This document shows, piece after piece, positions 418 through 21,660 of a DNA stretch of 38,629 bases. The stretch spans positions 1 through 38,629 of the forward strand of contig JAQXLU010000129.1 of assembly GCA_029012285.1 (NCBI GenBank). The letters are read 5' to 3'. The position numbers and the translations under genes are program-made. Every line of letters starts with the position of its first letter. Within the stretch, counting starts at the first letter, position 1. The DNA is from Clostridiales bacterium. Lineage in GTDB: Bacteria; Bacillota; Clostridia; Christensenellales; Aristaeellaceae. Under the pieces are notes generated by a model that was not told the DNA's origin, did not search any database, and was given only the letters and a program-made list of their open reading frames with translations.

Positions 418-428
418 GCGCTATGACA

Positions 429-1034: not shown

Positions 1035-1055
1035 CGAGATACCTCACTGGATATT

Positions 1056-1401: not shown

Positions 1402-1430
1402 TGCGAAGCAGGCATGCTTCCGATGGGATG

Positions 1431-1457
1431 ATTATAACATTGTTTTGTTTACAAAAC
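1431..1457 (-). promoter_or_regulatory. TATAAT box with adjacent perfect inverted repeat
   Basis: On the minus strand, TATAAT (1431-1436) is preceded by the inverted repeat GTTTTGT-AA-ACAAAAC (1442-1457), which covers the -35 region. There is no good -35 hexamer, the best being ATGTTT at 17 bp. This could be an activator- or repressor-controlled promoter left from the gene whose fragment starts at 1401. The rest of the 1250-1610 gap holds only a coding-like plus-strand stretch (about 1473-1583) that I cannot assign. Confidence 0.4.
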
Positions 1458-1610
1458 ATAATCAGGCTGGTGATGTGTGCAGAAAGTATATACACCGAAG
1501 CGGTGGACGTGGATGCCCTCCGCCGCTCCGGTATACCCATTGCCGCCGATGCGGTTTCGCTTTTCAAGCTCCAGGACGGCATTTCAATTCCAGCTTTACG
1601 ATCATTCTCC

Positions 1611-4022: not shown

Positions 4023-4142
4023 GACTTACCCTCCCTTTCGGAGATCACGGAACGAATCTGAATCGTCGTTTCCGCAGCATACACCCCAGGCGGACATCCC
4101 ATCCATCATGGAACAGTGACCATTTCATCCCGAGTTCTCTTT

Positions 4143-4305
4143 TATTGCTCCACCAATTTCATCGTGAATTCAGATGCGGGATGAGAAATCGTTCCAGCCA
4201 AGGAACGAAACCGCAGGAATACTGGAGGTATTTCAAGGTTGAGTGACGCAGGATGGAGCGATTTATCGCCCGCAGATGATTCACGATTTAGTTGGTGGAG
4301 CAATA
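4143..4305. mobile_element. 163-bp MITE-like element, copy 1
   Basis: Termini TATTGCTCCACCAA and TTGGTGGAGCAATA form about 27-bp imperfect inverted repeats (left arm 4143-4169, right arm 4279-4305). The outer TA at each end fits a TA target duplication, as made by IS630/Tc1-type transposases, although this is inference. The interior has small hairpins (GTTCC..GGAAC; AATAC..GTATT) and no gene. A second copy at 19388-19550 differs at 5 positions. It sits between the GPH symporter gene and the downstream GH3 gene. The rest of the 4023-4346 gap contains nothing I can assign besides the GH3 ribosome site. Confidence 0.85.
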
Positions 4306-5735: not shown

Positions 5736-8288
5736 TTATTCTCCTCTTTGATAGGGTTCCGAAACCGTATAGGTGCCCTGAGTCAATTTCTGCGTCTTTC
5801 CGCTGGGCATGATCAGGGTGCAGACGGTTCCGGCGGGCACCGTCACCGTCTGGGTAAAGACATGGTTTTCATCCATCTCCCAGCCGGAAGCGGCCTTGCC
5901 GTAGGGGGTCATCACCTCGGCCTTTGCCCAGGTCAGGCCGCCGCCGGGGAAGGGCTGAACCCGGAATTCCCGGTAGCCCGCACTGATCGGCTCCAAGCCC
6001 GCCACCCGGCGGTACAGGAAGTCGCCCACCGCGCCGCTGGCATAGTGGTTATAGCTGATCATGCCCCCGGTGCCGTCGTCCCCGATGGGACATAAGCCGT
6101 TTTCATCCAGGCCGTCCCACCGTTCCCAGATGGTGGTCGCGCCCACCCGTACCTCATACAGCCAGGAGGGGCTCTTGGTGTTCATCAGCATCCGATAAGC
6201 CGTATCGGCATAGCCGTTGTCCAGCAGGGCAAACAGGATATAGGGGGTACCGGGGAAGCCGGTGCCGATGCAGCAATCGTTGTCCTCCACCAGTTTTGCC
6301 AGGTGGGCAGCAGCGGCCTTCCTGCGGGGCTCATCCAGCATGCCGAAATACAGCGGCAGCACATAGCCGGTCTGGAACTGCTGCTTTTTCAGCTTTCCGT
6401 CCTCGTCCATCAGCAGGCTCTGGTAGGCATCCGCCACCCGGCGGCTGAGCTCCCGGTATTCGGCAGCCTTCTCCTGCTTGCCCAGCAGCGCACTGATCCT
6501 TGAAAGCATGGCGGAGGTGTTGCACAAGCTTGCCGTGGCCGTCCACTTGGAGCGAGCCTGCCACTGGGACATTTGGGGTACATCCGGCGCTACCCAATCG
6601 CCGAAATGGAACACCGAGGGGGTGTGCCAGATGTAGCGCTGCTTGCCAAAGCCGACGAGATTGGCCCAGAATTTGCAGGCCTTGACGTACCGCTCCATGG
6701 AATCATAGGCTTCTTCCAAAACGTGGATGTCGCCGGAGGCCATATACACCGCCCAGGGCACCAGAATGCAGGCATCGTCCCAGAAATCCACTGCCATGTT
6801 GGGCATGGTGGCGGGGAAGCCGTAGCCCTGCGCCGGAATGGTATTGGGAATCCCCCCCGTTGGCAGCTGCTCCGAGCGCAGATCCCGGAGCCATTTTTCC
6901 AGGAACCGGGTCATATCGAAGTTGAAAACCGCGGTGGGGGCAAATACGGCGATGTCCCCCGTCCAGCCCATTCGCTCGTCCCGCTGGGGGCAATCCGTGG
7001 GAATCTCCACAAAATTGGAGCGGGCACCCCAGCGGATGTTTTCATTCAGACGGTTCAGCAGCGCATTGGAGCAGGAGAAGGAGCCGTTTTCCCGGATGTC
7101 CGAGTACACCGCCCAGGCGCAGACCTCCAGCTCCTCCCGCCGGGCCCCCTCGATGGAGATGTAGCGGAAGCCCATGTAGGTGAATCGGGGCGCGTATTCC
7201 TGTTCGCCCTCCCGGCAGATGTAGGTGAGGGTTGCCTTGGCGCTGCGCAGGAAGGCCGTGTGCAGATCACCGTCAGCCTTGAGGATCTCCGCGTGGCGGA
7301 CGGTGACCTTCTGCCCCGCCTTGCCCCGGATTTTCAACCTGACAATTCCGGCGAAATTCTGCCCGAAGTCATAGATCAGCCGTCCGTTGACTTCTTTCAT
7401 AAAGTGGGCTTCAAACCGCTCTCTGCGAACCACCGGCAAGCCGATCTGCGCGGAAATGGCAGGATGGATTCTGACCGTTTCACAGGCCGCTCGATGCCAG
7501 TTGGCTTGCTCCAAATCCACCCGGGCATCGTAGGTTTCGCCGTCATACAGGTCTGCCAGCTTCACCGGGCCGTCCAGGGTCACATCCCAGCTCTCGTCGG
7601 TGCCGATGCAGCTGACGGAGCCGTCGGCATAGGTCAGGCGCAGCTCCAGCAGCAGTGCCTGGCGGGGGGCTGTGATGCGGTTGGCTCGGGTGAACACAAA
7701 GCTGCCCACTGCCCAGCCGCCGGCCACCTCCGCCGTGAGGGTATTTCCGGCTTGAAGCATGGCGGTGACATCATAGCGCTGGTACTGCAAATGATGCTTG
7801 TAGGAGGTGAAGCCGGGGGCAAAATACTGATGGCCCACCTTTTTCCCGTTGAGCTTCAACTCATATATGCCCAGTGCCGTCGCCAGAATCTCGGCATGGG
7901 CAACTGCTTTCTTCGTTTCAAAGACCTTGCGGAAGGTCATGACCTGGGGGGAGACCTTCTTCTCCTTGAAGATATATTCCCCGTCCGTGATCCACCGAGC
8001 CTGCCAGGGGGTATCCATGCGCCCGGTTCGGAAGGTGAAGCTGGCGCTGTCCTGTTCCGATTCGTTTTCGATGGTCAAAACCGCTGTGTAATCCGTGAAG
8101 GGTTTCAGCTCCGCCAGCGGACAGGGCACGGCGATCTGCGCCATCGCGTCCGTGCAGGCACCCGCCACAGACAGCTTTGCCCCTGTCATGTTCCCCTCAT
8201 AGCAAAAGGAGAAGCGGGGGGGCGTATCCGTTACAAAGTGTTCCGCCATGCCGTCGGCGGTAAAGGAAAGGATTTTCAAATTCTTCAT
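5736..8288 (-). CDS. GH78 alpha-L-rhamnosidase
   Basis: This 850-aa protein lacks a signal peptide, so it acts in the cytoplasm on imported substrates. The order is an N-terminal Ig-like domain ending in FRTGRMDTPWQARWI, a beta-sandwich carbohydrate-binding domain (YELKLNGKKVG, YDFGQNFAGIV), the (alpha/alpha)6 catalytic barrel, and a C-terminal beta domain. The catalytic block TDCPQRDERMGWTGD carries the acidic residues conserved in the family, and TTIWERWDG gives the distal glutamate. The start was placed at ATG 8288 (MKNLKILSF) because GGAG lies about 8 nt upstream; a longer 859-aa reading lacks such a site. The enzyme removes terminal alpha-L-rhamnose. Two GH3 enzymes and a GPH porter alongside suggest rhamnose-glucose conjugates such as plant glycosides. 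Confidence 0.95.
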   Translation of the reverse strand: MKNLKILSFTADGMAEHFVTDTPPRFSFCYEGNMTGAKLSVAGACTDAMAQIAVPCPLAELKPFTDYTAVLTIENESEQDSASFTFRTGRMDTPWQARWITDGEYIFKEKKVSPQVMTFRKVFETKKAVAHAEILATALGIYELKLNGKKVGHQYFAPGFTSYKHHLQYQRYDVTAMLQAGNTLTAEVAGGWAVGSFVFTRANRITAPRQALLLELRLTYADGSVSCIGTDESWDVTLDGPVKLADLYDGETYDARVDLEQANWHRAACETVRIHPAISAQIGLPVVRRERFEAHFMKEVNGRLIYDFGQNFAGIVRLKIRGKAGQKVTVRHAEILKADGDLHTAFLRSAKATLTYICREGEQEYAPRFTYMGFRYISIEGARREELEVCAWAVYSDIRENGSFSCSNALLNRLNENIRWGARSNFVEIPTDCPQRDERMGWTGDIAVFAPTAVFNFDMTRFLEKWLRDLRSEQLPTGGIPNTIPAQGYGFPATMPNMAVDFWDDACILVPWAVYMASGDIHVLEEAYDSMERYVKACKFWANLVGFGKQRYIWHTPSVFHFGDWVAPDVPQMSQWQARSKWTATASLCNTSAMLSRISALLGKQEKAAEYRELSRRVADAYQSLLMDEDGKLKKQQFQTGYVLPLYFGMLDEPRRKAAAAHLAKLVEDNDCCIGTGFPGTPYILFALLDNGYADTAYRMLMNTKSPSWLYEVRVGATTIWERWDGLDENGLCPIGDDGTGGMISYNHYASGAVGDFLYRRVAGLEPISAGYREFRVQPFPGGGLTWAKAEVMTPYGKAASGWEMDENHVFTQTVTVPAGTVCTLIMPSGKTQKLTQGTYTVSEPYQRGE

Positions 8289-8345
8289 GTGCTCTACTCC
8301 AAAAAGAGAAACCACTGTATTGACGCTTGGTTTTCAGTTTTCAGA

Positions 8346-8402: not shown

Positions 8403-8867
8403 TTAGGCCTTCTTCACATCCACAAAGGCGGAAATGACGGAGGCAAGCAGGCTCACGCCGTAAGCCACCATGCTGGCGATGGCCCAGGTGGCGGAGGACA
8501 GGTTGGCAGCCGTCTGCACTTCCTTGGCCACGTCGGCATTGGAGAAGTAGATAAAGCCCAGACCCTCGATCCGTCCGCCGATGAGGCTGATCAGGCAGTA
8601 GGCCAGCACCACGGGCGCGGCGATCTGGAGCGCACCGGTCACCAGTGCCACCAGGTTGCCGGCATAGCCCTTGGTTTCCACCATGCTCAGCGCGGCGGTG
8701 ACGACCAGCGCGGCAATGGCAGCCCAGGTCAGCGGCATGGTACTCACGGCGGCGTTCTGGAAGTAGCCCGCGCCGCCAATGTTCACGGAATAAATCACGA
8801 AGGAAACAACGGCAAGCACCGCTGCGGCAATGGCGAACCAGGCGCCTGCGGAGAACTTCTTATTCAT
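8403..8867 (-). CDS. Four-TM membrane protein of unknown function
   Basis: This 154-aa protein has four predicted membrane helices (about 8-28, 45-65, 70-100 and 125-148), a basic N-terminus (MNKKFS) and a VDVKKA tail. Its ATG overlaps the stop of the upstream GH3 gene in a TAATG junction, and its GGAGG lies in the last codons of that gene, so translation is coupled. I do not recognise a family with a known role. By coupling to a GH3 that is itself membrane-anchored at both ends, it may help hold or assemble that enzyme at the membrane; this is inference only. Confidence 0.75.
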   Translation of the reverse strand: MNKKFSAGAWFAIAAAVLAVVSFVIYSVNIGGAGYFQNAAVSTMPLTWAAIAALVVTAALSMVETKGYAGNLVALVTGALQIAAPVVLAYCLISLIGGRIEGLGFIYFSNADVAKEVQTAANLSSATWAIASMVAYGVSLLASVISAFVDVKKA

Positions 8868-11800
8868 TATTTAACCTCCTTCTTCTTGCCGGGAAGCAGC
8901 GTCAGGACAGCCCAGGCGGCAGCCGCCAGTACGGTCAGGACAGTGCTCACGGTGACCGCGATGGACAGCGCGGTGTCATACCAGGTGTCCACCTTCTCGG
9001 TGCGCACGTTCAGAACGGCACTGTTGGCAAAGGCATAGAGCTGATACTTCAGGTTCTCACGAGCCTGCTCCACCAGGGTGGCATCGTTCTTCACGGTTTC
9101 AACGCTGATGTAAGGCCAGTTGGTGTCCACGCCGCCCTCGCCCATGTTGATGTGGCTGTTGTCAGCGGCAAAGTCGGCAACCTGGGTGATACCGGCCATG
9201 ACCATGGACTCGGCGTTGAAGTAGTAGTTATTGTTGTTCATGTCCGTGGAGATCAGACCCTTGAAGCCCCACTCGTCGCGCAGGATGTTCTGAATCATGG
9301 GCGCGTAGCAGGCGGCATTGGTGGCACCGATGCGGTTGAAGGCCACCATCACGGCCAGACCCTTGGCATCGCTCAGGCCGCCCTGGAAGCCGCGCAGGTC
9401 GGTTTCACGGAGCTTCTGTTCGTTCATGTAGGCAGAGATGCCGCCGCGGTTGTGCTCCTGATCGTTGAAGCCGATGTGCTTGGGGCCGTTCATCACGCCC
9501 TTGTCGGCGCAGCCCTGCAAAATGCCGTAGCCAATGCGGTTGGTGAGCATGGGATCCTCGGAGATGTACTCGTAGTTACGGCCGTTGTAGGGAACGCGGC
9601 GCTGGGTCAGGCCAGTGCCCCACAGATCGAAGCGGTTGATCCACAATCCGGAGTTGCCTTCCACCCGACCCCACTCATAGGCCAGCTCGGGGTTGAAGGA
9701 GGAGGCCATCAGGGTCTGGGAGTGGATGTTGAACTTGTAGGTCTTGCCGGTCTTTTCATCAGTGTAGCCGGTGGTGAAGCCGCTGACACCCTCGTTCTGG
9801 ATCACCACGGGGTTGTCGATGTTGGTCAGGGTATCGGAGCGGCTGCCGCCATGGATGACAGCGCCCACCGCCTCGTCGATGGTGATTTCGGACACCAGCT
9901 CATCCCAGAAGGGATCGTTGATGTTGTCAATCTGCTCCTGCTGCACGTTGACAGCGTCGAATTTCAGACCCTTGTCCACGCCTTCGGCGGCGGGGTTGTT
10001 GTTCTGAATGGTGTACACCTGGCCGCGCAGCCGGGCGATCCACTCGTCCGCCTTGGGGCTGTCGCCGATCTTGATGGCCACCTCGTTGTAGTTGATGGGG
10101 TAGGTGCCTTCCCAATCCTGACGGGACAGGTAGGTGACGGTGTTGTCGCCGGTCCAGTAGTTCAGGTCGGCATCGTCTGCCACATTGGTCACGGTGGTGC
10201 CGTTCTGGGTGGCGAAGGTGGTCTTGTCCAGCTTGGCCAGGTTCCAGGTGGCAACAGCGCCCTTGCCCTCAGCATCCATGCCGTCGGCAACGGTCTTGCC
10301 CTGGGCGGCGAGGAAGTTGTTGACGGCCTCATGAGCACCGGCAGCGGCGGTGAAGAGGTAGTCGCCCTCATCCAGGATGTAAGTCTTGGCCGCCTTGTAG
10401 TCATAGCTGGCCAGATACTTGGTGGGCACGGTGATGGTAATGTCGGCGGTAGAACCGGCCTTCACCAGGGTCTTGCCGGAGTTCAGGAACATCACGGCGG
10501 ACTTTTCCACCAGGTTGGTGCGGTCATACTCGGTGTAGGGCTGCTGCGCATAGAGCTGCGCCAGGAACAGACCATCCTGATTGCTGAGGTTCTTCAGCTC
10601 GATGACGGCGGTGATGTTGCCGTTTTCGCTGTTGTCCACCTTGACGCTCTTGATGTTCTGCTCATAGGGCAGATAGGACAGGCCATGGCCGAAGGTGTAC
10701 AGCACTTCCTTGCCGTAGTCCCAGTTCTCGGACTGGGTCGCGCCCTTGGAGGAATCCGCCTTGAAGGAAGGATTCATAATGGCATCGTAGTAACGGGTTT
10801 CGTAGTACTTATAGCCCACGTAGATGCCCTCGGCCTCAACGATGTAAGTACCGCCGTTGTAGGTGACGGAGCCGCCGAAGGAGCCCGCCTCGGTATTGGC
10901 GATGGCCACGCCGGGGTAGCGGGGATCCTGGGTGCCGTCGGAGGCAACGATCTCATAGTCCGCGTAGTAGCCGCCGCCGAAGTTCATCACGGCGGGGATG
11001 GAGGCGTTGTCCGCCACATAGGTATCGGGCAGCGCGCCGGTGGCATTGGCAGCGCCGGTCAGGACGTTGGCAATGCCGATGCACTGGTAGTCGTTGACCA
11101 CGCCGATGTAGGCGATGCCGTCCACCTCATGCTCGCCGCCGGCGGCGATGTCCTTGAGCACCATGGTGTTGCCGGAGTTCACCAGCACGATGACCTTGGA
11201 GCAGGTCTGCTTGGCCAGATCAATCACCGCCAGCTCCTCATCGCTGAGCGCCAGGGGATCCTTGCCGGTGGGGTTGCCCAGGCTGTCCAGGGCGGAGCCG
11301 GGCTTGTAGGTGTTGCCTTCACCGGCGCCGCGGGCAAACACGCAGATACCCACGGAGCTGTCCTTTTCAATCAGCGTGCTCCAGTCGATCGGGATATCAA
11401 ACTCCCCAAAGCGGTCGGGCGCGATCTCCACGATCTTGTAGCCCGTCATATCGCCGGGGGCGCTGACAAAGATGTTGTCGTACATCGTGGTGGGAACCTC
11501 AACGCCGGTCCAGCGGTTGGGAACCATCTCGATGTGCTTGTTCAGGAACTTATTCATGTAGATGGACTCGATTTCCGCATTGACCTTCACGCCGGCATCC
11601 TTCAGCGCCTGCAGAAGATCCACGGCATCCTCATTGTTGGCCTTCAGGTCGCCGCCCGCGTTGATGAAGGGCGCATAGGCAGCCAGGCCGAAGAGAACAA
11701 CGGTGTCCTCCTTGTTCAGCGGCAGCGCGCCGTTGTCATTCTTCATCACAACGGTGCCCTCTTCACCTTCACGGATGGCAATGGCCTTGGCGGCAGCTGC

Positions 11801-12004
11801 CATTTCCTCGATGGTGCTGTAGTCACTCTGGAAGCGGATGCCGTCCTCGTTGTTGAGGGTCACATAGCTCTCCGTTCCCAGAAAGCCATCCAGCGCGTTG
11901 CGGTAGGTGTTTGCCAGACCCGTTCCGATGGTGGACAGAACCAGGATGCTGGCAGTCAGTGCCGCAATGCCGCGCATGAATGCCGCGAGTTTCTTGAACT
12001 TCAT
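8867..12004 (-). CDS. Membrane-anchored GH3 glycosidase with permuted domain order
   Basis: This 1045-aa protein has an N-terminal membrane segment (about 8-32) and a second near residues 1010-1032, followed by PGKKKEVK. The catalytic part is therefore likely outside the cell and tethered at both ends. The alpha/beta-sandwich domain comes first (from about residue 60), then the Fn3-like part introduced by YTFGHGLSYLPYEQ, and only then the TIM-like domain. That last domain carries KHIGFNDQEHNRGG and the nucleophile Asp921 in GLISTDMNNNNYYF. GH3 enzymes with swapped halves are known from ruminal Ruminococcus and Butyrivibrio. The start was set at ATG 12004, with AGGAGG 7-8 nt upstream; a longer reading from 12076 lacks such a site. 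The promoter is at 12102-12130. It is the first gene of the operon. Substrate uncertain (beta-glucoside likely). Confidence 0.9.
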   Translation of the reverse strand: MKFKKLAAFMRGIAALTASILVLSTIGTGLANTYRNALDGFLGTESYVTLNNEDGIRFQSDYSTIEEMAAAAKAIAIREGEEGTVVMKNDNGALPLNKEDTVVLFGLAAYAPFINAGGDLKANNEDAVDLLQALKDAGVKVNAEIESIYMNKFLNKHIEMVPNRWTGVEVPTTMYDNIFVSAPGDMTGYKIVEIAPDRFGEFDIPIDWSTLIEKDSSVGICVFARGAGEGNTYKPGSALDSLGNPTGKDPLALSDEELAVIDLAKQTCSKVIVLVNSGNTMVLKDIAAGGEHEVDGIAYIGVVNDYQCIGIANVLTGAANATGALPDTYVADNASIPAVMNFGGGYYADYEIVASDGTQDPRYPGVAIANTEAGSFGGSVTYNGGTYIVEAEGIYVGYKYYETRYYDAIMNPSFKADSSKGATQSENWDYGKEVLYTFGHGLSYLPYEQNIKSVKVDNSENGNITAVIELKNLSNQDGLFLAQLYAQQPYTEYDRTNLVEKSAVMFLNSGKTLVKAGSTADITITVPTKYLASYDYKAAKTYILDEGDYLFTAAAGAHEAVNNFLAAQGKTVADGMDAEGKGAVATWNLAKLDKTTFATQNGTTVTNVADDADLNYWTGDNTVTYLSRQDWEGTYPINYNEVAIKIGDSPKADEWIARLRGQVYTIQNNNPAAEGVDKGLKFDAVNVQQEQIDNINDPFWDELVSEITIDEAVGAVIHGGSRSDTLTNIDNPVVIQNEGVSGFTTGYTDEKTGKTYKFNIHSQTLMASSFNPELAYEWGRVEGNSGLWINRFDLWGTGLTQRRVPYNGRNYEYISEDPMLTNRIGYGILQGCADKGVMNGPKHIGFNDQEHNRGGISAYMNEQKLRETDLRGFQGGLSDAKGLAVMVAFNRIGATNAACYAPMIQNILRDEWGFKGLISTDMNNNNYYFNAESMVMAGITQVADFAADNSHINMGEGGVDTNWPYISVETVKNDATLVEQARENLKYQLYAFANSAVLNVRTEKVDTWYDTALSIAVTVSTVLTVLAAAAWAVLTLLPGKKKEVK

Positions 12005-12059
12005 GTTTCTTCCTCCTGTGTGTCTTTTATAACAACAGCGAAGCGGAAAATCCACTGTC

Positions 12060-12082
12060 GCTTTTGTTTCGCTCACAAAAGC
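12060..12082. promoter_or_regulatory. Perfect inverted repeat in the GH3 operon leader
   Basis: GCTTTTGT (12060-12067) and ACAAAAGC (12075-12082) are exact inverted arms with a 7-bp spacer. The site lies about 20 bp downstream of the -10 box of the minus-strand promoter, where a repressor would block elongation or an RNA hairpin would form in the leader. The TTTTGT/ACAAAA core also occurs in the palindrome at 1442-1457. Confidence 0.5.
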
Positions 12083-12101
12083 ATGTCGTGTTCTATATCA
12101 T

Positions 12102-12130
12102 ATTTTGCCACATTGCACTATTCCTGTCAA
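12102..12130 (-). promoter_or_regulatory. Promoter of the GH3-GH78-GPH operon
   Basis: On the minus strand, a perfect TTGACA (12125-12130) is followed after 17 bp by CAAAAT (12102-12107). It fires toward the permuted GH3 gene, with a leader of about 95 nt. It is divergent from the promoter at 12194-12222, and the LytTR-like repeats lie between the two. Confidence 0.65.
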
Positions 12131-12142
12131 CACGCCGGACTT

Positions 12143-12172
12143 CCAGTTACGCCTGTTTTTCGACCAGTTACG
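12143..12172 (+). promoter_or_regulatory. Probable LytTR response-regulator binding site (two 9-bp direct repeats)
   Basis: CCAGTTACG occurs at 12143-12151 and again, identically, at 12164-12172, with a 12-bp spacer and so a 21-bp period. LytTR-domain regulators bind pairs of imperfect 9-bp direct repeats around a GTT core, separated by 12-13 bp, usually just upstream of the -35 box. Here the second repeat ends 21 bp before the TTGACA of the acylation-locus promoter. A LytTR regulator is encoded at 18426-19136. The same site lies 12 bp beyond the -35 box of the divergent GH3 promoter. Confidence 0.7.
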
Positions 12173-12193
12173 TTTTCCCCCATGCCCGCTGAA

Positions 12194-12222
12194 TTGACAA
12201 GCACCCTCCCTTGGGCTACAAT
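12194..12222 (+). promoter_or_regulatory. Promoter of the acylation locus
   Basis: TTGACA (12194-12199), a 17-bp spacer and TACAAT (12217-12222) give a near-consensus sigma-A promoter. Transcription would start near 12229. That rules out the in-frame TTG at 12211 as translation start and supports GTG 12256. Confidence 0.8.
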
Positions 12223-12255
12223 GGAGGTCAACAGGACGGAAGGGGGAATGCGGGC

Positions 12256-14019
12256 GTGAAAAAGCTGGGGCTTCTTGCCGCTTTGGCTGCGCTGGCAGTC
12301 CTGCTCTGCGGCTGCAGCGCGAAGCAGACCGCTTCCGACCTGTGCAGCGTGGTATGGGAGGACAATGAAGAGATTCTCTTTCGCAATCAGGTGTTCACGG
12401 TTCCAAGGGGCAGTGACCTGACGGTGACAGTCAGCATTCCGCAGGGCAAGCGCGTTGCCTCCGTCAGCTATTCTGGAAGCACCGTATCCGCCTGCATCCA
12501 GGAAACCGCCGCCCGCCGGGATTTTCAGATCACCCTCCCCGCCGTTCGCTATCCCACCCTGGTTCGGCTGACCCTTTTGCCGGATTACACCACCCTTTAC
12601 CGCTGCGAGGGGAGCGAACCCATCCTCGTGACGGAAACCAGCGAGCGTCTGCGGTGCAACAGCCTGCCCTGGCAGCCGTCCTTTTCCAGGGAAGGCCAGT
12701 ACCCCCTGGGCTGGCGCGTTGATGGCATGGAGGGGTGCATCGGCTTTGGAAGCCGGTTCGACCATTCTCCCGCCCAGACCATGGCGCTGGAATGCCATTG
12801 GATGCCCTGCACCTCGGCGGAGGCCTTTGATTACACCATCCGGGATGGCGGAGCGGTCATCACCGGATATGCGGGCACCGGCAGCATCCTCATCCCGGAC
12901 AAGCTGGGCGGCTTCCCGGTGGTCGGCATTGCCGGACATGCCTTCGGGGCTGTGGAAGCAGAGATGCTGGCGCTGCCCCACACGCTGCAATTCATTCAGC
13001 CGGGTGCCTTCCAATCGCTCAAGGCGGAGCATGTTTACCTCTTTGACAGCCTGTGTCAGATCAGCGACGATTCCTTCGGGGAATCCGTCATTTCCCACCT
13101 GCACATTCACGCCGCCACGGAGCCGGTGTACTGCGGCACCTATTTTGACACGCTGTCCGAAAAAGTGGATTATCTGTCCCAGGTTCGGGAATCTCCCAAG
13201 ATCATCCTCTTCTGCGGCTCCTCCGCCCGGTTCGGCTACAACAGCCCCATGCTGGAGGCGGCTTTCCCGGGCTACCGGGTGGTGAATATGGGGGTCTATG
13301 CCTATTCCAATATGCTACCCCAGGCCATGCTACTGGAAGGCTACCTCCAGGAGGGGGACATTGTGCTGTCCTCCCCGGAGCTGGATGCCATCGACACCCA
13401 GTTCTGCGGCAGCAGCCGGTTGGACAGCGAATTTTTCGCCATGATGGAATCCAACTACCAAATGCTGGCAGATTTGAACCTCTCCGGGTTGGAGGGCATC
13501 TTCGACGCGCTGGGGGAATATCTGCAAGTCAGGCAGGGCATGACACCCCGCTCCTACCTGGACATCCCCGCCCACTTTGACGAGGACAATCACCCCAGCG
13601 CCGCGCTGAGCTACAACCGGCAGGGGGATTACATGCTTCACCGTCCCGGCAACACCGATGGGAAGCTCTTTGGCATCAAGCGGGCCTATTACAACGCAGC
13701 GCACATCCGGGAAGCGGACTTTCAGGGGCTGAACCGGGTCTATGATCGTTTCCGGGAAAGGGGTGCAGCGGTCTATTTCACTTACTCTCCCCGGAGCGAA
13801 CGCAGCATCTCCGCCGACAGCGACAGCGCGTCCATCGCGGCGCTGGATCAGGCCTTCCGGGAAAAGCTGCATGTCCCGGTGATTTCCCCGATCCAGGATT
13901 CTCTCATGGATGCCTACTACTTCTACGGTACCGACAACCACCTGACCACGGAGGGCGCGGCCATCCACACGAATGCGGTCATCCGGGACTTGCGCCGGGC
14001 ATTGGAGGAAACCCCATGA
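12256..14019 (+). CDS. LRR-SGNH surface lipoprotein (acylation-locus gene 1)
   Basis: This protein has 587 aa from GTG 12256, with AGGGGG about 8 nt upstream. The N-terminus KKLGLLAALAALAVLLCGC is a lipoprotein signal with Cys20 as the anchor. Residues about 25-190 are beta-rich and include a GW...HW stretch like Listeria/Bacteroides-type surface repeats. Residues about 190-275 form a BspA-like leucine-rich module (ITGYAGTGSILIPDKLGG and following). The rest resembles SGNH/DltD/AlgX-type proteins: the Ser motif is FCGSSARFG (Gly321-Ser322-Ser323) and the C-terminal Asp560-x-His562 lies in GTDNHLTTEG. Such proteins take acyl groups passed across the membrane by an MBOAT protein and put them on a surface glycan. 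The stop overlaps the next start. The target glycan is unknown. Confidence 0.8.
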   Translation: MKKLGLLAALAALAVLLCGCSAKQTASDLCSVVWEDNEEILFRNQVFTVPRGSDLTVTVSIPQGKRVASVSYSGSTVSACIQETAARRDFQITLPAVRYPTLVRLTLLPDYTTLYRCEGSEPILVTETSERLRCNSLPWQPSFSREGQYPLGWRVDGMEGCIGFGSRFDHSPAQTMALECHWMPCTSAEAFDYTIRDGGAVITGYAGTGSILIPDKLGGFPVVGIAGHAFGAVEAEMLALPHTLQFIQPGAFQSLKAEHVYLFDSLCQISDDSFGESVISHLHIHAATEPVYCGTYFDTLSEKVDYLSQVRESPKIILFCGSSARFGYNSPMLEAAFPGYRVVNMGVYAYSNMLPQAMLLEGYLQEGDIVLSSPELDAIDTQFCGSSRLDSEFFAMMESNYQMLADLNLSGLEGIFDALGEYLQVRQGMTPRSYLDIPAHFDEDNHPSAALSYNRQGDYMLHRPGNTDGKLFGIKRAYYNAAHIREADFQGLNRVYDRFRERGAAVYFTYSPRSERSISADSDSASIAALDQAFREKLHVPVISPIQDSLMDAYYFYGTDNHLTTEGAAIHTNAVIRDLRRALEETP

Positions 14020-14255
14020 CACTGCTGATTTTCCAATATCCCCTGCTGTGCCTGGCTGCCCTGGGCTGCGGAGGGCTCTGCGCCGTGGGGGCAAGACAGG
14101 GCAATGGGTGGTGGTTCTGGGGGTGCTGCATGGCGCTGACCGCCCTGGTTGTCGCCGCGCTGACCTGTATGATCCCCTATGTGGAGATCATTTTGCTGCT
14201 GCTGCCGTCGGTATACAGCACCTTTATCACCGGGAGGAAGGAGGGCGCACCATGA
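14016..14255 (+). CDS. Small membrane protein of the acylation locus
   Basis: This 79-aa protein has two or three hydrophobic segments (about 2-24, 30-50 and 53-70) and a basic tail (TGRKEGAP). It overlaps the preceding stop and the following start by ATGA at both ends, which is strong evidence for a real, coupled gene. GGAGGA precedes the ATG. In D-alanylation operons a small membrane protein (DltX) accompanies the MBOAT protein DltB; this protein has the same place but no sequence likeness that I can claim. A role in assembling the SGNH-MBOAT complex is inference. Confidence 0.75.
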   Translation: MTLLIFQYPLLCLAALGCGGLCAVGARQGNGWWFWGCCMALTALVVAALTCMIPYVEIILLLLPSVYSTFITGRKEGAP

Positions 14256-15616
14256 CCTTCACCCAGCCGGTTTTTCCCCTTTTCCTTCTTTTGGTGCTGC
14301 TGGGGCTTCGGCTTTTGCCCCCGCAGCGGAAATGGCAGCTGCTTTTGCCCGCCTCCTGGCTTTTCTACGCCTGGTACAGCCTCCCGCTGCTGGGGCTGCT
14401 GGGGCTGGCGACGGCTGTCTCCTTTGTCTGCGGCGTGCTGATGGAGAAAAAGGAAAAATCCCGCAGGGGCTGGTTCCTCTTGGGGTGCATCAGCCTGCTG
14501 GGGATTCTGTTCGTTTTCAAGTATCTGGATTTTGCCGCCCTGGGCATTGCTTCGCTGCTGCGGCTGGCGGGCGCTCCCAACGATTTCCGGGGATTTGGTC
14601 TGATCCTGCCCATGGGCATTTCCTTCTATGTGTTTCAGACCCTTTCCTATCTCATTGACGTGTACCGGCGGGAGATTCCGGCGGAACGGCATTTTGCTGT
14701 CTATGCGCTGTTTGTCTCCTTCGTCCCCCAGCTGGTGGCGGGGCCCATCGAGCGGCCGGCGGACCTGCTGCCCCAGCTTCGATGCCCGGGAAAGCCCATG
14801 ACGGCGGAGGGGCTGCGCCTGCTGCTTCGGGGCTATGCCAAAAAGGTGGTCATTGCCGATACCGTGGCTGTCCTGGTGGACAACGCCTACGCCCAGGGGA
14901 CTGCCGCCGGGGGGCTGGCGCTCACGGCCGCCACCGCACTGTTTGCCCTCCAAATCTACTGCGATTTTTCCGGCTATACCGACATCGCCCGGGGCTGCGG
15001 GGCGCTGATGGGCATCCGCCTTTCCGAAAATTTCCGCCGCCCCTACGGCGCTGTCACGGTTCAGGAGTTCTGGCGGCGCTGGCACATCTCCCTGACCCGG
15101 TGGTTCCGGGACTATGTGTACATTCCCCTGGGGGGAAGCCGGAGAGGCAGGGCTTGCACCGTCCGCAATATTCTGATCGTCTTTCTCCTCAGCGGTCTCT
15201 GGCACGGCGCGGATGTGAAATTTCTGATCTGGGGCGGTTTGCACGGGCTGTATCTGTGCCTAGAGCTCTGGCTCAAGCCCCGGCGTTTCCCGCTGCGCCG
15301 CGCCCTGACTCTGCTGCTGGTGGGAATCGCCTGGGTTTTCTTCCGGGCAGCCAGCCCGGTGGCGGCGCTTGCCATGATGAAAACCATATGCACCGATCCG
15401 GCACCCCTGGGGCTTTTCAGCGGCCTTGGGATTTCCGCCCCACAGGCATTGATGGTGCTGGGCATTCTGCCGCTGCTGCAAGTTGTCGAAAAGCTCCCGC
15501 CCCTTTCGGAGAAGCACAGGCTCCGGTATCTGGTTCTGATTTTGCTGATTTTCTTTTGCCGGATGCAGCTACTGACACAGGGCGGCTCCGATGCCTTCAT
15601 CTATTTCCAGTTTTAG
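14252..15616 (+). CDS. MBOAT-family membrane O-acyltransferase (AlgI/DltB-like)
   Basis: This 454-aa polytopic membrane protein keeps the AlgI/DltB landmarks. It has VFKYLDF, ILPMGISFYVFQTLSYLIDV, FVPQLVAGPIERP, FWRRWHISLTRWFRDYVYIP (His278), and the invariant histidine of the family in GLWHGA (His318). It moves acyl groups from a cytoplasmic donor across the membrane for transfer to a surface polymer. No dltA/dltC-like activation genes occur here, so acetyl-CoA or a similar soluble donor is more likely than D-alanyl carrier protein. The start at ATG 14252 overlaps the previous stop and has GGAGG upstream; a longer in-frame reading from 13973 would run through the preceding genes and is rejected. 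The stop lies 9 nt from the next gene. Confidence 0.93.
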   Translation: MTFTQPVFPLFLLLVLLGLRLLPPQRKWQLLLPASWLFYAWYSLPLLGLLGLATAVSFVCGVLMEKKEKSRRGWFLLGCISLLGILFVFKYLDFAALGIASLLRLAGAPNDFRGFGLILPMGISFYVFQTLSYLIDVYRREIPAERHFAVYALFVSFVPQLVAGPIERPADLLPQLRCPGKPMTAEGLRLLLRGYAKKVVIADTVAVLVDNAYAQGTAAGGLALTAATALFALQIYCDFSGYTDIARGCGALMGIRLSENFRRPYGAVTVQEFWRRWHISLTRWFRDYVYIPLGGSRRGRACTVRNILIVFLLSGLWHGADVKFLIWGGLHGLYLCLELWLKPRRFPLRRALTLLLVGIAWVFFRAASPVAALAMMKTICTDPAPLGLFSGLGISAPQALMVLGILPLLQVVEKLPPLSEKHRLRYLVLILLIFFCRMQLLTQGGSDAFIYFQF

Positions 15617-15625: not shown

Positions 15626-17056
15626 ATGAATCGACGGGGAATTGTCAGTCTGCTGCTGGGAATCTGTTCGCTCCCCTTGGTGCTGCTTCTGCTGGGCTTT
15701 CTGCTCCCCGCCCAGTACGGGGGGACCTATCTGGGGGAAATGCCTGAAAAGCACCGCCGACTGAACACCGCCCAGGGAAGGCGCATCATCGTGATCGGCG
15801 GAAGCAGCGTCCCCTTCGCGCTGAACAGCCCGCAGCTTGAACAGCTGCTTCCCGGCTGGACGGTGGTGGACTACGGCCTCTATGCCCCGCTGGGAACCGT
15901 CACCATGCTGGACTGGGCGCTGGAGGGCATCCGGGAAGGGGATCTGGTGATCCTGTCCCCGGAGCAGGATGCCCAGGCACTGTCCTGCTACGTGGATGGG
16001 GAAAGCATCTTGCAGGCCTGTGATGGGCATTTCGACCTGCTGACCCGGCTGAACCCGACCCGCTTGGAGGCCGTTGCCGCCGCCTTTCCAGCCTTTGCCG
16101 GAAAGAAGCTGCACTGCGCCCTTTGGGGTCAGCCGGAGTCCACGGGCATTTATACCCGAGCCTCCTTCAATGCCTACGGGGACATCGACTGCCCCGGACG
16201 GGAGCGGAACATCCTGCCGGGATTGCGGCAGCAAAACCAGCAGATTTCCTTTGACCCCCAGATGCTTTCGGCGGATTTTATTCAGGAGGTCGCGGCTTTT
16301 GCTCAGGCAGTTCGGCAAAAGGGCGCGGACATTGTCTATCACTTCCCGCCCATGAACGCGGCGGCGGTTTCCGAGGAAGCCCTTACCACTGTGGATGCCT
16401 ATTATGATTTTCTTGCCAAGGCATTGCCGATGCCCATCCTTGGCGATCCCCACCACTGCATTCTGGATGCCGAATGGTTCTATGACACCAATTTTCATCT
16501 GAACGCCGCCGGTGCCATCGTCTTTACCGGCCTTTTGGCAGAGGACATCAAGGTATATCTTCGTGATTCCTCCCCCACGGCCCTCTCCCTGCCTTCCAAG
16601 CCCGCACCCCGGCAGGCGGTCTATACCGGGGATGATTCCTGCGCCGATTGCTTCACCTACCGTCAAGAAGGGGAAGGCTGGGTCATCGACGGCCTCACCG
16701 CCCAGGGCAGACAGCAGGAAGCACTGATTCTACCCACCCATTACCAGGGTCAGCCCGTCACCGGGATGGCGGCGGATGTGCTGAAAAACCACACCGCCTT
16801 GAAGGCGCTGACCATCCAGCCCAACATCCCCGTCCTGCCGGATGGCTTTGTCCAGGGCTGTATCCGCCTCCGTCGGATCCTGCTCACCGGGGAAGAGCCC
16901 TCGGCTTACAGCGTCGGGGACAGGCTGATGGAGGGCGCTTCCTTCCTGATTCAGGTTCCTGCCGCCGCCCTGGATGCTTACCGGCGGAATTATTCCTGGC
17001 AGCAGTATGAGCCCTGGCTGACCTCCGAATCATCGGATTTCCAGGGCAGTAAATAA
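15626..17056 (+). CDS. SGNH-LRR membrane protein (acylation-locus gene 4)
   Basis: This 476-aa protein is anchored by one N-terminal membrane segment (about 6-28). The SGNH part follows at once: IVIGGSSVPFALNSP (Gly59-Ser60-Ser61) and, near residue 285, FYDTNFHLNAAGA with Asp287 and His291. From about residue 335 the sequence turns into a BspA-like leucine-rich module (LILPTHYQGQPVTGM, LKALTIQPNIPVLP, CIRLRRILLTG). The domain order is the reverse of the first gene, where the LRR module comes before the SGNH part. AGGAGG precedes ATG 15626. It is the last gene of the locus, with a terminator 9 bp after its stop. It probably acts outside the membrane with the MBOAT protein; donor and acceptor are unknown. 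Confidence 0.8.
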   Translation: MNRRGIVSLLLGICSLPLVLLLLGFLLPAQYGGTYLGEMPEKHRRLNTAQGRRIIVIGGSSVPFALNSPQLEQLLPGWTVVDYGLYAPLGTVTMLDWALEGIREGDLVILSPEQDAQALSCYVDGESILQACDGHFDLLTRLNPTRLEAVAAAFPAFAGKKLHCALWGQPESTGIYTRASFNAYGDIDCPGRERNILPGLRQQNQQISFDPQMLSADFIQEVAAFAQAVRQKGADIVYHFPPMNAAAVSEEALTTVDAYYDFLAKALPMPILGDPHHCILDAEWFYDTNFHLNAAGAIVFTGLLAEDIKVYLRDSSPTALSLPSKPAPRQAVYTGDDSCADCFTYRQEGEGWVIDGLTAQGRQQEALILPTHYQGQPVTGMAADVLKNHTALKALTIQPNIPVLPDGFVQGCIRLRRILLTGEEPSAYSVGDRLMEGASFLIQVPAAALDAYRRNYSWQQYEPWLTSESSDFQGSK

Positions 17057-17106: not shown

Positions 17107-18426
17107 TTATTCGGGTCGGTTGAACAGCACCCGCAGCTCAAACCAGCCGTTTTCAGCGCGTACAGTCATGGAGCCGCCGTATTTGTCCACAATGGTGCCG
17201 ATGCTTTTCAGGCCGAAGCCGTGGAAATCCGTGTCCTGCTTGCTGGTGACGGGCATGCCGTCCACCATTTTCAGCTCCCCTCGATAACAGTTCTCCATGT
17301 GGATGCGCACAAAGGACTTCTGGCGGCTCACCGTCAGGTGGATCAGCCGCTTTTCCTGCTCTGGAATTCCGCTGACGCTTTCGATGGCGTTGTCCAGCGC
17401 ATTTCCGAACAGAATGCTGATGTCCATGGCGTTCATGAAATCCAGGGCGCTTCCATCCGCCGTGCAGGTCAGGACGATGCCCTCCCGCTGGCATTGCAGG
17501 CTTCGGGCGGTGAGAATGGTATCCAGCACATTGTTGCCGGTTTTGTTCCTGGCCTCATAGGAGCGGATATCCTGCTCCAGCTCATCCAGATACTGTAATT
17601 TCTCCCCCGATGTGATCTCGCTGCGGAGCAGGGCGATCTGGTGCTTCAAATCGTGGTATTTCTGATTTACCAACCGGACGCTTTCCTCATGGATGCGGTA
17701 GTTATCGTACTGCATGGCCAGCAGCTTTTGCAGGTAATCCGCTTTGACCCGGAAGGACATGTTCAGATTCTGCATATGAAAGGAGAACATGATCCCCACG
17801 CCGCCAACATCCGTCAGGGAGCGAATGATGAAGATTTCCTGGGTAAAGACGCTGGAAAAGGGGGTGTTCTGGTACACAAACGAAAGGTTGCTGATGGTGT
17901 AGACGGAAACCGCCAGCAGCGCCATGGTGCCCAGCTGCTGCCAGCTCACCGCCATTTGCGCGTTTCCCTCCGTGTGGCGGCTCTCCAGCAGATACGGCAC
18001 AGCGAATACCGCCAGATACGTCACCGCCATGACGGCCATGCCATAGGGCAGCGTTCCCGGAATCCAGCCGTTTCGCTGGAGGAAGTAGAACACCTGCCAC
18101 TCCACAGCGGCCGCAGCCTCCCCCAGGATGAAGGCCCGGACGCAGAAATAGGCCGCCTTTTTCCAGTCCACCTCGCACATGGAATGCAGATAGATCAGCA
18201 TCATGGTCACATCCAGCAGCATGCACGGGATGAAGTATATCCTGTCAATGCCGTCCGTCAGCACCATGAAGGAGCTCACCCCCAGCAGCGCCGTCAGGCT
18301 GATGCCCACCCCAGTGGGCTTGCTCAGGCTTCTGTGGGGCAGCAGGAAGGAATACACCAGGCAGGACAGCCAGTAGGCCAGGGCGTAATTGAATCCCGGG
18401 GTATGGGAAAAGTCGCCTCCCGCCAT
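17107..18426 (-). CDS. GHKL sensor histidine kinase (AgrC/LytTR-system type)
   Basis: This 439-aa protein has about six N-terminal membrane helices (1-215) and a cytoplasmic GHKL kinase part. The phospho-acceptor is probably His258 in YHDLKHQ, preceded by a coiled helix. The ATP-binding N-box is GNALDNAIE and the G-box is FHGFGLKSI. Kinases with many membrane helices and a YHDxK/RHD motif pair with LytTR regulators and often sense peptides or envelope state. Its ATG overlaps the regulator stop in a TAATG junction, so the two are coupled. No AgrD-like peptide or AgrB peptidase was seen nearby, so the signal is unknown. Confidence 0.92.
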   Translation of the reverse strand: MAGGDFSHTPGFNYALAYWLSCLVYSFLLPHRSLSKPTGVGISLTALLGVSSFMVLTDGIDRIYFIPCMLLDVTMMLIYLHSMCEVDWKKAAYFCVRAFILGEAAAAVEWQVFYFLQRNGWIPGTLPYGMAVMAVTYLAVFAVPYLLESRHTEGNAQMAVSWQQLGTMALLAVSVYTISNLSFVYQNTPFSSVFTQEIFIIRSLTDVGGVGIMFSFHMQNLNMSFRVKADYLQKLLAMQYDNYRIHEESVRLVNQKYHDLKHQIALLRSEITSGEKLQYLDELEQDIRSYEARNKTGNNVLDTILTARSLQCQREGIVLTCTADGSALDFMNAMDISILFGNALDNAIESVSGIPEQEKRLIHLTVSRQKSFVRIHMENCYRGELKMVDGMPVTSKQDTDFHGFGLKSIGTIVDKYGGSMTVRAENGWFELRVLFNRPE

Positions 18427-19136
18427 TACTTGCTCACCTCGTTGATGTAGTCATTCAGCGCATCCATCAGCGGCTTTTTCCGGGAGCGGCTGACGGTCAG
18501 GGTATCCCCATCTACGGTGACACTGCTGCTGTGGATGCAGTCCACATACTCCAGATTCACCAGATAGCAGTTGCTGATGCGGAAAAAGTGCTCCTTTTCC
18601 AGCTTCTCCGCCGCGTCCGTCAGGGACCCCTTGCAGGTATAGCTGGTATCCCGGGTGTGGTAGATCAGATCGTGGTTGACGATTTCCACATAGACAATCC
18701 GGGAAACCTCCACTTTCACAACGCCATTGTGGATGGGAATGGAAAGATAGCGGCGAGCTCTGCGCTCCATCCGTTCCAGGGCGCGGCTGATGCGCTGGGA
18801 GAAGGCATAGTAGCTCACGGGCTTGAGCACATAGTCCAGCGCATCCACGGTATAGCCCTTCATGGCGTATTGGGGCATATTGGTGATGAAGATGATCACC
18901 ACCTCCTGATCCTGCTGCCGGATGAGCTCCGCAGCGCGCATCCCATCCATCCCTGCCATTTCAATGTCCATGAGAATCAGATCCCAGGAGGCGCTGTAAT
19001 CGGCTGTGATCTCCTTTCCATCCGAAAAAGTGGCAATATGGAACTTGTGCCCGCTTTCCAGAGAGAAGCGGTTCAGAAACGCCGTCATTTCCTCCCGATA
19101 CCGGGCATCATCCTCCACAATGGCAACACGAATCAC
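18426..19136 (-). CDS. LytTR-family response regulator
   Basis: This 236-aa regulator starts at GTG 19136, chosen because AAAGGAG lies about 9 nt upstream and the receiver domain begins at once (IRVAIVEDD). An ATG at 19169 would add 11 residues ahead of it. The receiver carries phospho-Asp57 in LILMDIEMAG and the late Lys in YVLKPVSY. Residues about 135-235 form the LytTR DNA-binding domain (HNGVVKVEVSRIVYVE, FFRISNCYLVNLEYVD). LytTR domains bind paired 9-bp direct repeats, and such a pair lies at 12143-12172 upstream of the acylation locus. The promoter is probably the extended -10 at 19207-19215. Confidence 0.92.
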   Translation of the reverse strand: MIRVAIVEDDARYREEMTAFLNRFSLESGHKFHIATFSDGKEITADYSASWDLILMDIEMAGMDGMRAAELIRQQDQEVVIIFITNMPQYAMKGYTVDALDYVLKPVSYYAFSQRISRALERMERRARRYLSIPIHNGVVKVEVSRIVYVEIVNHDLIYHTRDTSYTCKGSLTDAAEKLEKEHFFRISNCYLVNLEYVDCIHSSSVTVDGDTLTVSRSRKKPLMDALNDYINEVSK

Positions 19137-19206
19137 ACGAAAGCGCTCCTTTCTGCGGTTATTGCTCATGTCCTTACAAAAAGTGCTGCAAGTTGCCTAT
19201 GTGGCC

Positions 19207-19372: not shown

Positions 19373-19387
19373 TATTGCTCCACCAAT

Positions 19388-19550
19388 TATTGCTCCATCA
19401 ATTAAATCGTGAATTCAGATGCGGGATGAGAAATCGTTCCAGCCAAGGAACGAAACCGCAGGAATACTGGAGGTATTTCAAGGTTGAATGACGCAGGATG
19501 GAGCGATTTATCGCCCACAGATGATTCACGATTTAGTTGGTGGAGCAATA
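19388..19550. mobile_element. 163-bp MITE-like element, copy 2, with extra left terminus
   Basis: The same element as at 4143-4305 (158 of 163 identical), in the same orientation, with inverted ends TATTGCTCCATCAA and TTGGTGGAGCAATA. An additional 15-bp left terminus (TATTGCTCCACCAAT, 19373-19387) abuts it. This suggests insertion next to, or recombination with, an older copy. It separates the membrane-protein remnant from a gene start on the minus strand. Confidence 0.85.
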
Positions 19551-19775: not shown

Positions 19776-19832
19776 ATGACGCAGGAAGAGAAACGCTGGA
19801 TCGGCGAAATGCGCGCTGCCGGGTGCAGCTAA
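19776..19832 (+). pseudogene. Truncated N-terminus of a small HTH-type protein
   Basis: GGAGAG followed by ATG 19776 opens MTQEEKRWIGEMRAAGCS and stops at once. The stop codon TAA is made from the first bases of the 98-bp repeat. The sequence resembles the start of short clostridial helix-turn-helix proteins of the type IxxLRxxGxSYxxIA, and breaks just where the turn would follow. The repeat therefore seems to have cut this gene. Confidence 0.4.
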
Positions 19833-19927
19833 ACCACATGATCTGCGCGAGAATGCAGGGGAAGCGATCATGAAGCACGATCCAGGCACACTGAACAGAA
19901 TCCTTCGGCCGATTCCGTCGTCGTCAT
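19830..19927 (+). repeat. 98-bp direct repeat, copy 2
   Basis: 96 of 98 bases match 320-417. In one plus frame it reads AKPHDLRENAGEAIMKHDPG and continues to RPIPSSS, with TAA placed exactly at the end of the repeat. It could therefore be the 3' end of a lost gene that has been copied twice; copy 1 runs on without that stop. The two copies are 19,510 bp apart and bracket the hydrolase, acylation and two-component blocks. Between it and 20072 I see two hairpin-forming inverted repeats, including TTACCCAA (20006-20013) with TTGGGTAA (20035-20042). Confidence 0.9.
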
Positions 19928-20748: not shown

Positions 20749-21639
20749 ATGTCCATCATATTGGATCATCAGCTTCGGGAGAAGATAGCCCACGATGCGT
20801 CCGTATTCCCGATCAGCTATTTCCAGGATGAGCTGGCCCTGCTGCCGAATCAGGTGGGGCCGCTGCACTGGCATCCGGAGTTTGAGATCGCCACGGCGGC
20901 GTCCGGTGTGCTGGAGTATCAGGTCGGTCAGGAGCGCATCACGCTGGAACCTGGGGACAGCATCCTTGTGGGCGGCAATATGCTCCACAGCATTCGGCAG
21001 CTGTCCGGCGATACCCCTGACCCGATGCCCAACATCGTGTTCTTCGGTTCGCTGATCGCACCGGAGACCAGCACCATCTATGCCCGGTATATCCAGCCCA
21101 TCATCGACGACCACGCGCTGCCTTATGTGGTGTTCCGGCATGACCGGAGCGAGCATGTGCCGGTCAATACGCTGATCCGGGACATCTACCGCCTTCTTCG
21201 TGAACAGCCCCGCTGCTACGAAATGGCGGTGCAGCGCCATCTCAGCAGCATCTTTGAGTACCTTGCCATGCGCTTTGATGATCTGCCCCGGACGGAGGCT
21301 ACCCGTGTGCAGCTGAATACACAGGTACGCGTCCAGCAGATGCTGGCCTTCATCAACGACCATTATGCGGAAAAGGTCACCCTGGGCGACATCGCCGGGG
21401 CTGCCAGCATCAGCCGCAGCGAGGCCGGGCGATGCTTTCAGGCCTACATGGGCTGTTCGCCGGTGGATGCGCTGATCCAGCACCGTTTGCAAAAGGCGCA
21501 TGGCATGCTGCATGATACGACCCGCACCCTGCAGGAAATCAGCCATGCCTGCGGCTTCAACTCGGTGAATTACTTCAGCCGTCAATTCCGCAAGCATTAC
21601 GGATATGCGCCCAGCCGAGCCAACGAACGGCTCAAATAA
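20749..21639 (+). CDS. AraC-family transcriptional regulator with cupin sensor
   Basis: This 296-aa protein begins with an AraC-type cupin sensor. The sugar-binding half (about 25-170) carries GPLHWHPEFEIATAASGVLEY and LEPGDSILVGGNMLHS. The C-terminal 100 residues contain two helix-turn-helix units: VTLGDIAGAASISRSEAGRCF, then LQEISHACGFNSVNYFSRQF followed by the usual Y-x-P-S. It probably senses a sugar and controls its own operon. AGGAGG precedes ATG 20749. The palindrome in the promoter at 20080-20091 is a candidate target, although AraC proteins more often bind direct repeats. Confidence 0.93.
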   Translation: MSIILDHQLREKIAHDASVFPISYFQDELALLPNQVGPLHWHPEFEIATAASGVLEYQVGQERITLEPGDSILVGGNMLHSIRQLSGDTPDPMPNIVFFGSLIAPETSTIYARYIQPIIDDHALPYVVFRHDRSEHVPVNTLIRDIYRLLREQPRCYEMAVQRHLSSIFEYLAMRFDDLPRTEATRVQLNTQVRVQQMLAFINDHYAEKVTLGDIAGAASISRSEAGRCFQAYMGCSPVDALIQHRLQKAHGMLHDTTRTLQEISHACGFNSVNYFSRQFRKHYGYAPSRANERLK

Positions 21640-21660
21640 GCTGCCCCGAAAGGAATATCC

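Follow-up and report, generated by a model that had tools for sequence, protein, structure and literature searches.

The window (the whole stretch of DNA analysed, 38,629 nt from the draft genome of a Clostridiales bacterium) carries two divergent gene blocks with a pair of direct repeats between them and, convergent to the right-hand block, the genes of a two-component system (Table 1). The leftward block encodes a glycoside hydrolase of family 3 (GH3) with permuted domain order, a small protein and an alpha-L-rhamnosidase, and the rightward block a lipoprotein-like protein, an MBOAT O-acyltransferase and a protein of the kind that accompanies MBOAT in relatives; the latter is presumably SGNH/DltD-like, judging by motif. 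The GH3 is 67–74% identical to the GH3 of related loci L112, L114–L117, L119, L120, L122 and L124–L126. The two-component system comprises a GHKL sensor kinase, the N-terminal half of which appears hydrophobic by eye, and a LytTR response regulator encoded 6 kb from the repeats. Among the best 60 of 104 sequence matches of this regulator to solved structures, most cover the receiver half, and ComE is the one match recognised as a LytTR protein aligned across both halves.

Table 1 Features of the GH3–acylation locus and of the intergenic repeat pair.
Feature	Position	Strand	Remarks
Alpha-L-rhamnosidase (GH78-type)	5736..8315	−	Bac_rhamnosid domains; homologue in 45/80 relatives' loci
Small protein	8403..8867	−	No Pfam or NCBIfam match; adjoins GH3 in relatives also
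GH3, permuted domain order	8867..12004	−	Domain matches, Glyco_hydro_3_C before Glyco_hydro_3
Promoter-like TTGACA-17-CAAAAT, upstream of GH3	12102..12130	−	TTGACA starts at 12130, CAAAAT ends at 12102
First half-site, 11-mer TCCAGTTACGC	12142..12152	+	Contains the 9-mer at 12143–12151
Second half-site, 11-mer ACCAGTTACGT	12163..12173	+	Contains the 9-mer at 12164–12172; period 21
Promoter-like TTGACA-17-TACAAT, upstream of lipoprotein–MBOAT genes	12194..12222	+	TTGACA 12194–12199, TACAAT 12217–12222
Lipoprotein-like protein	12256..14019	+	Lipobox by eye; weak LRR_5 match below cut-off
MBOAT O-acyltransferase (PF03062)	13973..15616	+	DltB-like, far under equivalog cut-off (134 of 375 bits)
MBOAT-accompanying protein	15626..17056	+	Also in relatives; no Pfam match
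GHKL sensor kinase	17107..18426	−	HATPase_c_5; homologue in 80/80 relatives' loci
LytTR response regulator, presumed binder	18426..19169	−	Domain matches, Response_reg and LytTR

Beyond the two-component system, an AraC-type regulator and an MFS transporter (20749–22851) form another control unit of sugar type near the locus, and a fragment at 23249–23452 (plus strand) is 40% identical to the receiver of the LytTR regulator and contains an internal stop, perhaps the remains of a broken second response regulator. Near-identical direct repeats link 4142–4305 with 19387–19550 and 320–417 with 19830–19927 (97% and 98% identity, respectively), and are possibly mobile-element remnants.

The repeat pair and its flanking promoters

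The 9-mer CCAGTTACG occurs at 12143–12151 and again at 12164–12172 (sequence inspection), 21 bp start to start and with a gap of 12 bp, so that the pair described in the earlier note is borne out, with a chance expectation near zero. The window holds 2 copies of the 9-mer against 0.10 expected from shuffles, a pair with up to three mismatches is found once against 0.00 expected (100 shuffles), and no other identical 9-mers recur at period 21 in the window. LytTR operators, those of AgrA and others, share the broad consensus [TA][AC][CA]GTTN[AG][TG] twice, 12–13 bp apart. The 12–13 bp of LytTR sites, which the earlier note gave as the spacing, is correctly the gap between the repeats, so the 12-bp gap of the window fits, and the pair has the general form of a LytTR-type operator (two direct repeats of ~9 bp, gap of 12 (11–13) bp). 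It also resembles the operators of LytTR response regulators in lying upstream of a promoter, with genes for a LytTR regulator and a GHKL kinase nearby. In contrast, the unit, which in the register of the relatives is ACCAGTTACG, departs from them at the G of GTT, and the GTT core proposed in the earlier note was placed one base off. The neighbouring genes, glycoside hydrolases and an acylation module, differ from those of the known systems too.

Both flanking promoters assigned earlier are present. The second 9-mer ends 21 bp before the −35 of the plus-strand promoter (11/12 matches), and the site lies ~12 bp beyond the −35 of the minus-strand GH3 promoter (10/12); the region 12005–12260 contains three promoter-like sites against 0.3 expected. 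The repeats face the lipoprotein–MBOAT operon and point away from GH3, and no GH3-facing pair was found in the intergenic region by a period-21 scan.

Within the 2.8-Mb draft genome the exact pair (gap of 10–15 bp) occurs a single time, and among 18 genus genomes it is confined to that of the window. No homologue of the intergenic DNA was detected in 307 other family genomes, save for one 30-bp promoter match. The latter (L262, G060:C252:29-58; 90% identity to 12194–12223) is confined to the lipoprotein promoter, from its −35 to its −10; the L262 contig begins 28 bp upstream of the match, and the frame downstream is presumably GH130-like. A degenerate search of the 308 family genomes (CCANTTAYG-N12-CCANTTAYG, one mismatch), which again recovered the G026 site described below, gave matches in 58 genomes and serves as a lead only, the reversed control having scattered matches too and the places having been inspected in part. 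At L078, L079, L081 and L086 (G062, G063, G068 and G093) there are similar pairs, for example CCAATTCTG-N12-CCACTTATG, whose T-rich spacer closely resembles that of the window, but no homologues of window genes were found in the 3 kb examined.

A paired motif at related loci

An alignment of three sequences, searched against genome contigs of 84,980 species, identified 142 relatives of the regulator, and the best 80 of these 142 (46–62% identical to the window regulator) were kept. Neighbour counts (tblastn, 1e-10, 150 aa, weaker or shorter matches dropped) around these best 80 gave a kinase in 80/80 loci, a GH3 homologue in 62, a rhamnosidase in 45, one or the other in 67, and an acylation gene in ten. 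Regulator and kinase genes adjoining GH3/GH78 genes mark a locus of this subfamily, to which the window, with both GH3 and rhamnosidase, conforms. Forty loci with more distant regulators, taken from LytTR-rich order-level genomes such as G597, carry a GH3 homologue in 32 cases and a rhamnosidase homologue in none, and ten other LytTR loci from the window's own genome, G009, G026 and G042 include one GH3 homologue and no rhamnosidase. G597 itself has 48 LytTR matches in a 2.0-Mb genome, and six further order-level genomes have 15–22.

The first hint of a shared operator came from G026, in which the gap between GH3 and regulator contains ACCATTTATGC and ACCACTTATGC with a period of 21, and from G042, where GCAATTTATGC and ACCATTTGTGT lie ~30 bp before the −10 upstream of GH3. 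A consensus of these and the window pair detected 8 pairs (at least 16 matches) at period 21 in the 80 loci compared with 0–5 at other periods, and an iterated profile 109 pairs at period 21 compared with 4–31 at other periods. From the pairs of L156, L157, L159 and L187 a second profile was then built. Trained on the 80 loci with the window sequence excluded and used at a threshold of 18 bits, it identified 69 pairs (63 distinct) in 46 of the 80 loci; no pair exceeded the threshold in the stretches examined of the other 34. The motif of the subfamily is a pair of 11-mers, A-C-[CGA]-G-[TA]-T-[TC]-[AG]-[CT]-G-[CA], at period 21. As training selects period-21 pairs, and the seeds were originally found with a consensus derived partly from the window, the period peak is partly built in; the position of the −10, the gene context and the control loci are evidence independent of profile training.

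Of the 69 pairs, 55 fall outside the frames predicted by a crude caller; for 46 of the 55, the best −10 (allowed range 20–45 bp) is 29–31 bp downstream. The −35 is poor at these 55 sites (6/6 in none, mostly 1–3 of 6, 5 in three). Fifteen of 72 sites that the same caller scored as coding were left out of these counts, although some at least (L120, L072) are covered by spurious frames and are intergenic. Targets, defined as frames of at least 200 aa within 420 bp on the facing strand only, could be named for all but nine of the 69 sites, with families assigned from one representative per cluster. The 60 sites face 24 GH3, 14 rhamnosidase, seven GH2-type, six MFS_2 sugar transporter and three GH43 genes, and six others (two Sde182-like, and one each of GH2 beta-galactosidase, canonical GH3, the regulator itself and an unassigned frame).

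At the ten control LytTR loci of four genomes no period-21 pair reached 18 bits with the full profile or 15 bits with a profile in which motif positions 4–5 were masked. With the masked profile, the window and the 80 loci together gave 80 period-21 pairs, compared with 2–14 at other periods, and 47 more distant loci gave a weaker period-21 peak (27, compared with 3–15).

Departures of the window pair from the motif

The window pair matches the motif except at positions 4–5, where both copies have AG for G[TA]. This is why it scores only 11.6 bits with the full profile, below both a coding pair at 20479 (12.3 bits) and the 18-bit threshold applied to relatives. With positions 4–5 masked it becomes the best pair in the window (22.2 bits; next period-21 pair 14.0), a score reached by no pair at 44 other periods over 1.38 Mb, where at least 20 bits is attained at 0.004 per window per period. 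The designation as a LytTR-type direct-repeat site, made in the earlier note, is therefore well supported by length, gap and agreement outside positions 4–5 with the 63 distinct pairs of 46/80 loci. A chance repeat, or the site of an unrelated DNA-binding protein, would be in keeping with the low unmasked score and with the occurrence of similar pairs away from such systems, but is extremely improbable given the near-zero chance expectation and the agreement with a motif built without the window sequence.

In the masked scan of the 80 loci AG in both halves was found at no locus besides the window; one half of the L227 pair has AG, and A at position 4 of both halves is also present in L069, L072, L222, L227 and L251. 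An A at this position is likewise seen in the LytTR repeats ACCACTTAC-12 bp-ACCACTTAC and in one of the two halves of ACCAGTTAT-12 bp-ACCGACTAT, as given in the available part of PMC6193735. In AgrA, N201 is a DNA-contact residue (PMC4227749, available part), and the segment FFRISNC of the window regulator aligns with AgrA FFRCHNS, with N at the place of N201. Of 85 aligned regulators, 68 have K here; N is found in the window, L069, L072, L222 and L227, all of which have A-type pairs, and also in L140, L224, L229, L240, L247, L254 and L255, which have G-type pairs, and in L161 and L170, which have no pair over threshold. A strict rule coupling N at this place to A at position 4 was rejected, being broken by the seven G-type loci, and since N accompanies both types it would permit rather than dictate the A.

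The placement of the site is also unusual. From the second 11-mer to the −10 of the lipoprotein–MBOAT promoter is 43 bp, and this promoter has a 6/6 −35, compared with 29–31 bp in 46/55 and a 6/6 −35 in 0/55 intergenic sites of relatives; on the other side, the −10 of the GH3 promoter is 34 bp from the first 11-mer, which faces away from it. The window site thus has neither the canonical placement of the subfamily (29–31 bp before a −10 with poor −35) nor its canonical orientation towards GH3, GH78 or another glycoside gene, and its geometry differs from that of the relatives on either side. The variant bases at positions 4–5, the unusual distance and the good −35 and −10 elements on both sides would all suit a relic, an operator rendered non-functional by drift of both sequence and place, with the operon now on its own consensus promoter. 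Drift alone would not, however, leave two copies identical over 9 bp with the same deviation, which makes a relic very unlikely.

A site serving the divergent GH3 promoter, or both promoters, would agree with GH3 being the commonest target of relatives (24/60), with the distance to the GH3 −10, which is nearer to 29–31 bp than is the 43 bp on the opposite side, and with L191, where the same divergent GH3/lipoprotein layout has a weaker pair in the equivalent gap, facing GH3. The window repeats face away from GH3, however, and GH3-facing cases are common in relatives (targets having been sought on the faced strand only), so this arrangement appears quite unlikely. The paired site faces GH3 not only in L191 but in L112, L116, L117, L120, L072 and L069, opposite to the window. 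Two cultured relatives, Anaerobium acetethylicum (L128) and Gemmiger formicilis (L165), likewise have the locus and a pair ahead of GH3.

Regulator, targets and relation to known systems

The LytTR/GHKL two-component system encoded 6 kb away is probably the one that the pair serves, as a variant operator, a reading based on the repeat itself, its motif and spacing, the conserved gene neighbourhood and the paired sites of relatives. The regulator was singled out in the earlier note as the only intact LytTR regulator of the window, which holds for the window, but the draft genome encodes six LytTR proteins, two of which (contigs 56 and 6) belong to the same broad class, so it is not the only candidate. 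The pair could instead be the operator of one of these two paralogues, each of which lies beside its own GH3 in an RR-HK-GH3 locus of the same class, or of a kinase-less LytTR regulator missing from the draft. The repeats of kinase-less systems, as reported in the available part of PMC6193735, are very close to ACCAGTTAC and have a 12-bp gap. However, no matching paired site was found in the stretches examined at either paralogue locus, all six LytTR matches lie in frames of 235–294 aa and thus include no short kinase-less protein, and the window regulator adjoins the site and has close relatives with paired sites in the same gene context; control by another regulator is accordingly considered unlikely. 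As a separate observation, the locus on contig 6 (L264, position 5440) has ATTTGTCGTGA / ATTTGTCGCGA at period 21 upstream of the GH3 adjoining its related LytTR regulator, perhaps the paralogue's own operator with a different head sequence.

For the window system, two LytTR domains of the phosphorylated regulator would occupy the direct repeats, which are spaced by two helical turns on the same face of the DNA. At relatives' loci the site is usually 29–31 bp before the −10 of a promoter with a poor −35, facing GH3/GH78-centred genes, with the acylation module further down the same strand in some, and the poor −35 suggests activation. The window site, placed between the divergent GH3 and lipoprotein–MBOAT genes, is directed at the lipoprotein–MBOAT side, so the acylation operon is most likely what the regulator modulates, perhaps together with GH3, in a layout that may have arisen by rearrangement. 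A full −35, such as the window promoter has, could make the effect smaller or reverse its sign.

The link between the two-component system and acylation drawn in the earlier note is supported indirectly by four relatives (L112, L116, L117 and L120), in which a single strand carries first GH3 (73–74% identical to that of the window and divergent from the regulator), then the small protein, then MBOAT and its partners; a paired site facing GH3 lies just upstream. A transporter-like frame intervenes before the acylation genes in L112, L117 and L120. Activation of the acylation promoter by the window pair itself is less certain, in view of the 43-bp distance, the 6/6 −35 and positions 4–5. The one genus relative found to keep both regulator and acylation genes, G009, has no pair in the gap upstream of MBOAT; it bears only in part on loss of the repeats, as that gap lies between same-strand genes and the contig ends upstream of the gene row. 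In L112, one 938-aa frame (1–2815, minus strand) matches both window proteins that flank MBOAT and is probably a fusion.

A link to GH3, raised earlier only as a possibility, is also supported and is the commonest association of the subfamily, a GH3 homologue being present in 62/80 loci. The relatives thus suggest a regulon of glycoside hydrolysis, with acylation as an occasional member. The envelope or peptide signal first envisaged finds no support, the targets of relatives being glycoside hydrolases and sugar transporters; the hydrophobic half of the kinase and the pairing of GH3 with rhamnosidase point to a glycoside or a part released from it, and the ligand is most likely a glycoside or its product.

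In the LytTR Regulatory Systems of Streptococcus mutans and others (HdrRM, BrsRM), the repeats (ACCACTTAC or ACCAGTTAT, for example) are separated by 12 bp and lie mostly ~10 bp before the −35, and the regulators, partnered by a membrane inhibitor and not by a kinase, control bacteriocin genes as well as their own operon (PMC6193735, available part). The ~10 bp agrees with the 29–31 bp that separate site and −10 at the loci of the 80 relatives. The window differs in that its response regulator is paired with a GHKL kinase and that 22 bp lie between the 9-mer ACCAGTTAC and the −35. Classification of the window system as a kinase-less LytTR Regulatory System was rejected, as the regulator carries a receiver domain and is accompanied by a GHKL kinase, and a period-21 scan of the window found no paired site at the regulator's own promoter.

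Closer in gene content is Butyrivibrio proteoclasticus B316, described in 2010, in which three LytTR regulators each lie near a secreted GH3 bearing a membrane helix at its C terminus (PMC2914790, available part). The window shares the LytTR response regulator beside a membrane-linked GH3; that account, in its available part, describes the neighbourhood at three loci and includes no operator, regulon or acylation. The Gram-positive polysaccharide utilization locus Ros-7 (PMC5320581, available part) similarly has a LytTR regulator in a carbohydrate locus, as a table entry of RR[LytTR] and kinase, again with no operator given. No description of the operator was found in the open literature searched (longer result lists in part), PMC2914790 and PMC5320581 being pertinent among the matches listed. 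The LytTR–GH3 neighbourhood is already in print.

A wider reading is put forward tentatively: that a widespread, little-studied class of AgrC/AgrA-like LytTR/GHKL systems in Clostridia may be dedicated to glycoside hydrolysis (permuted GH3 plus GH78, GH2 and GH43), act through a defined operator of 21-bp period and in some lineages, including that of the window, also drive an O-acylation module, and that in the window a change of specificity in the regulator (N where AgrA has N201) may have gone hand in hand with one in the operator (A at motif position 4). Its standing is lowered by the seven loci with N and G-type pairs against five with A-type. LytTR systems have mostly been studied in the control of virulence and bacteriocins. 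An operator motif and a predicted regulon are now given for a LytTR class whose GH3 neighbourhood had been noticed and left unexplained. If true, this glycoside-use class of gut and rumen Clostridia would be a counterpart, among Gram-positive bacteria, of the sensors dedicated to polysaccharide loci in Bacteroides, and the link to acylation would tie a glycoside signal to surface modification.
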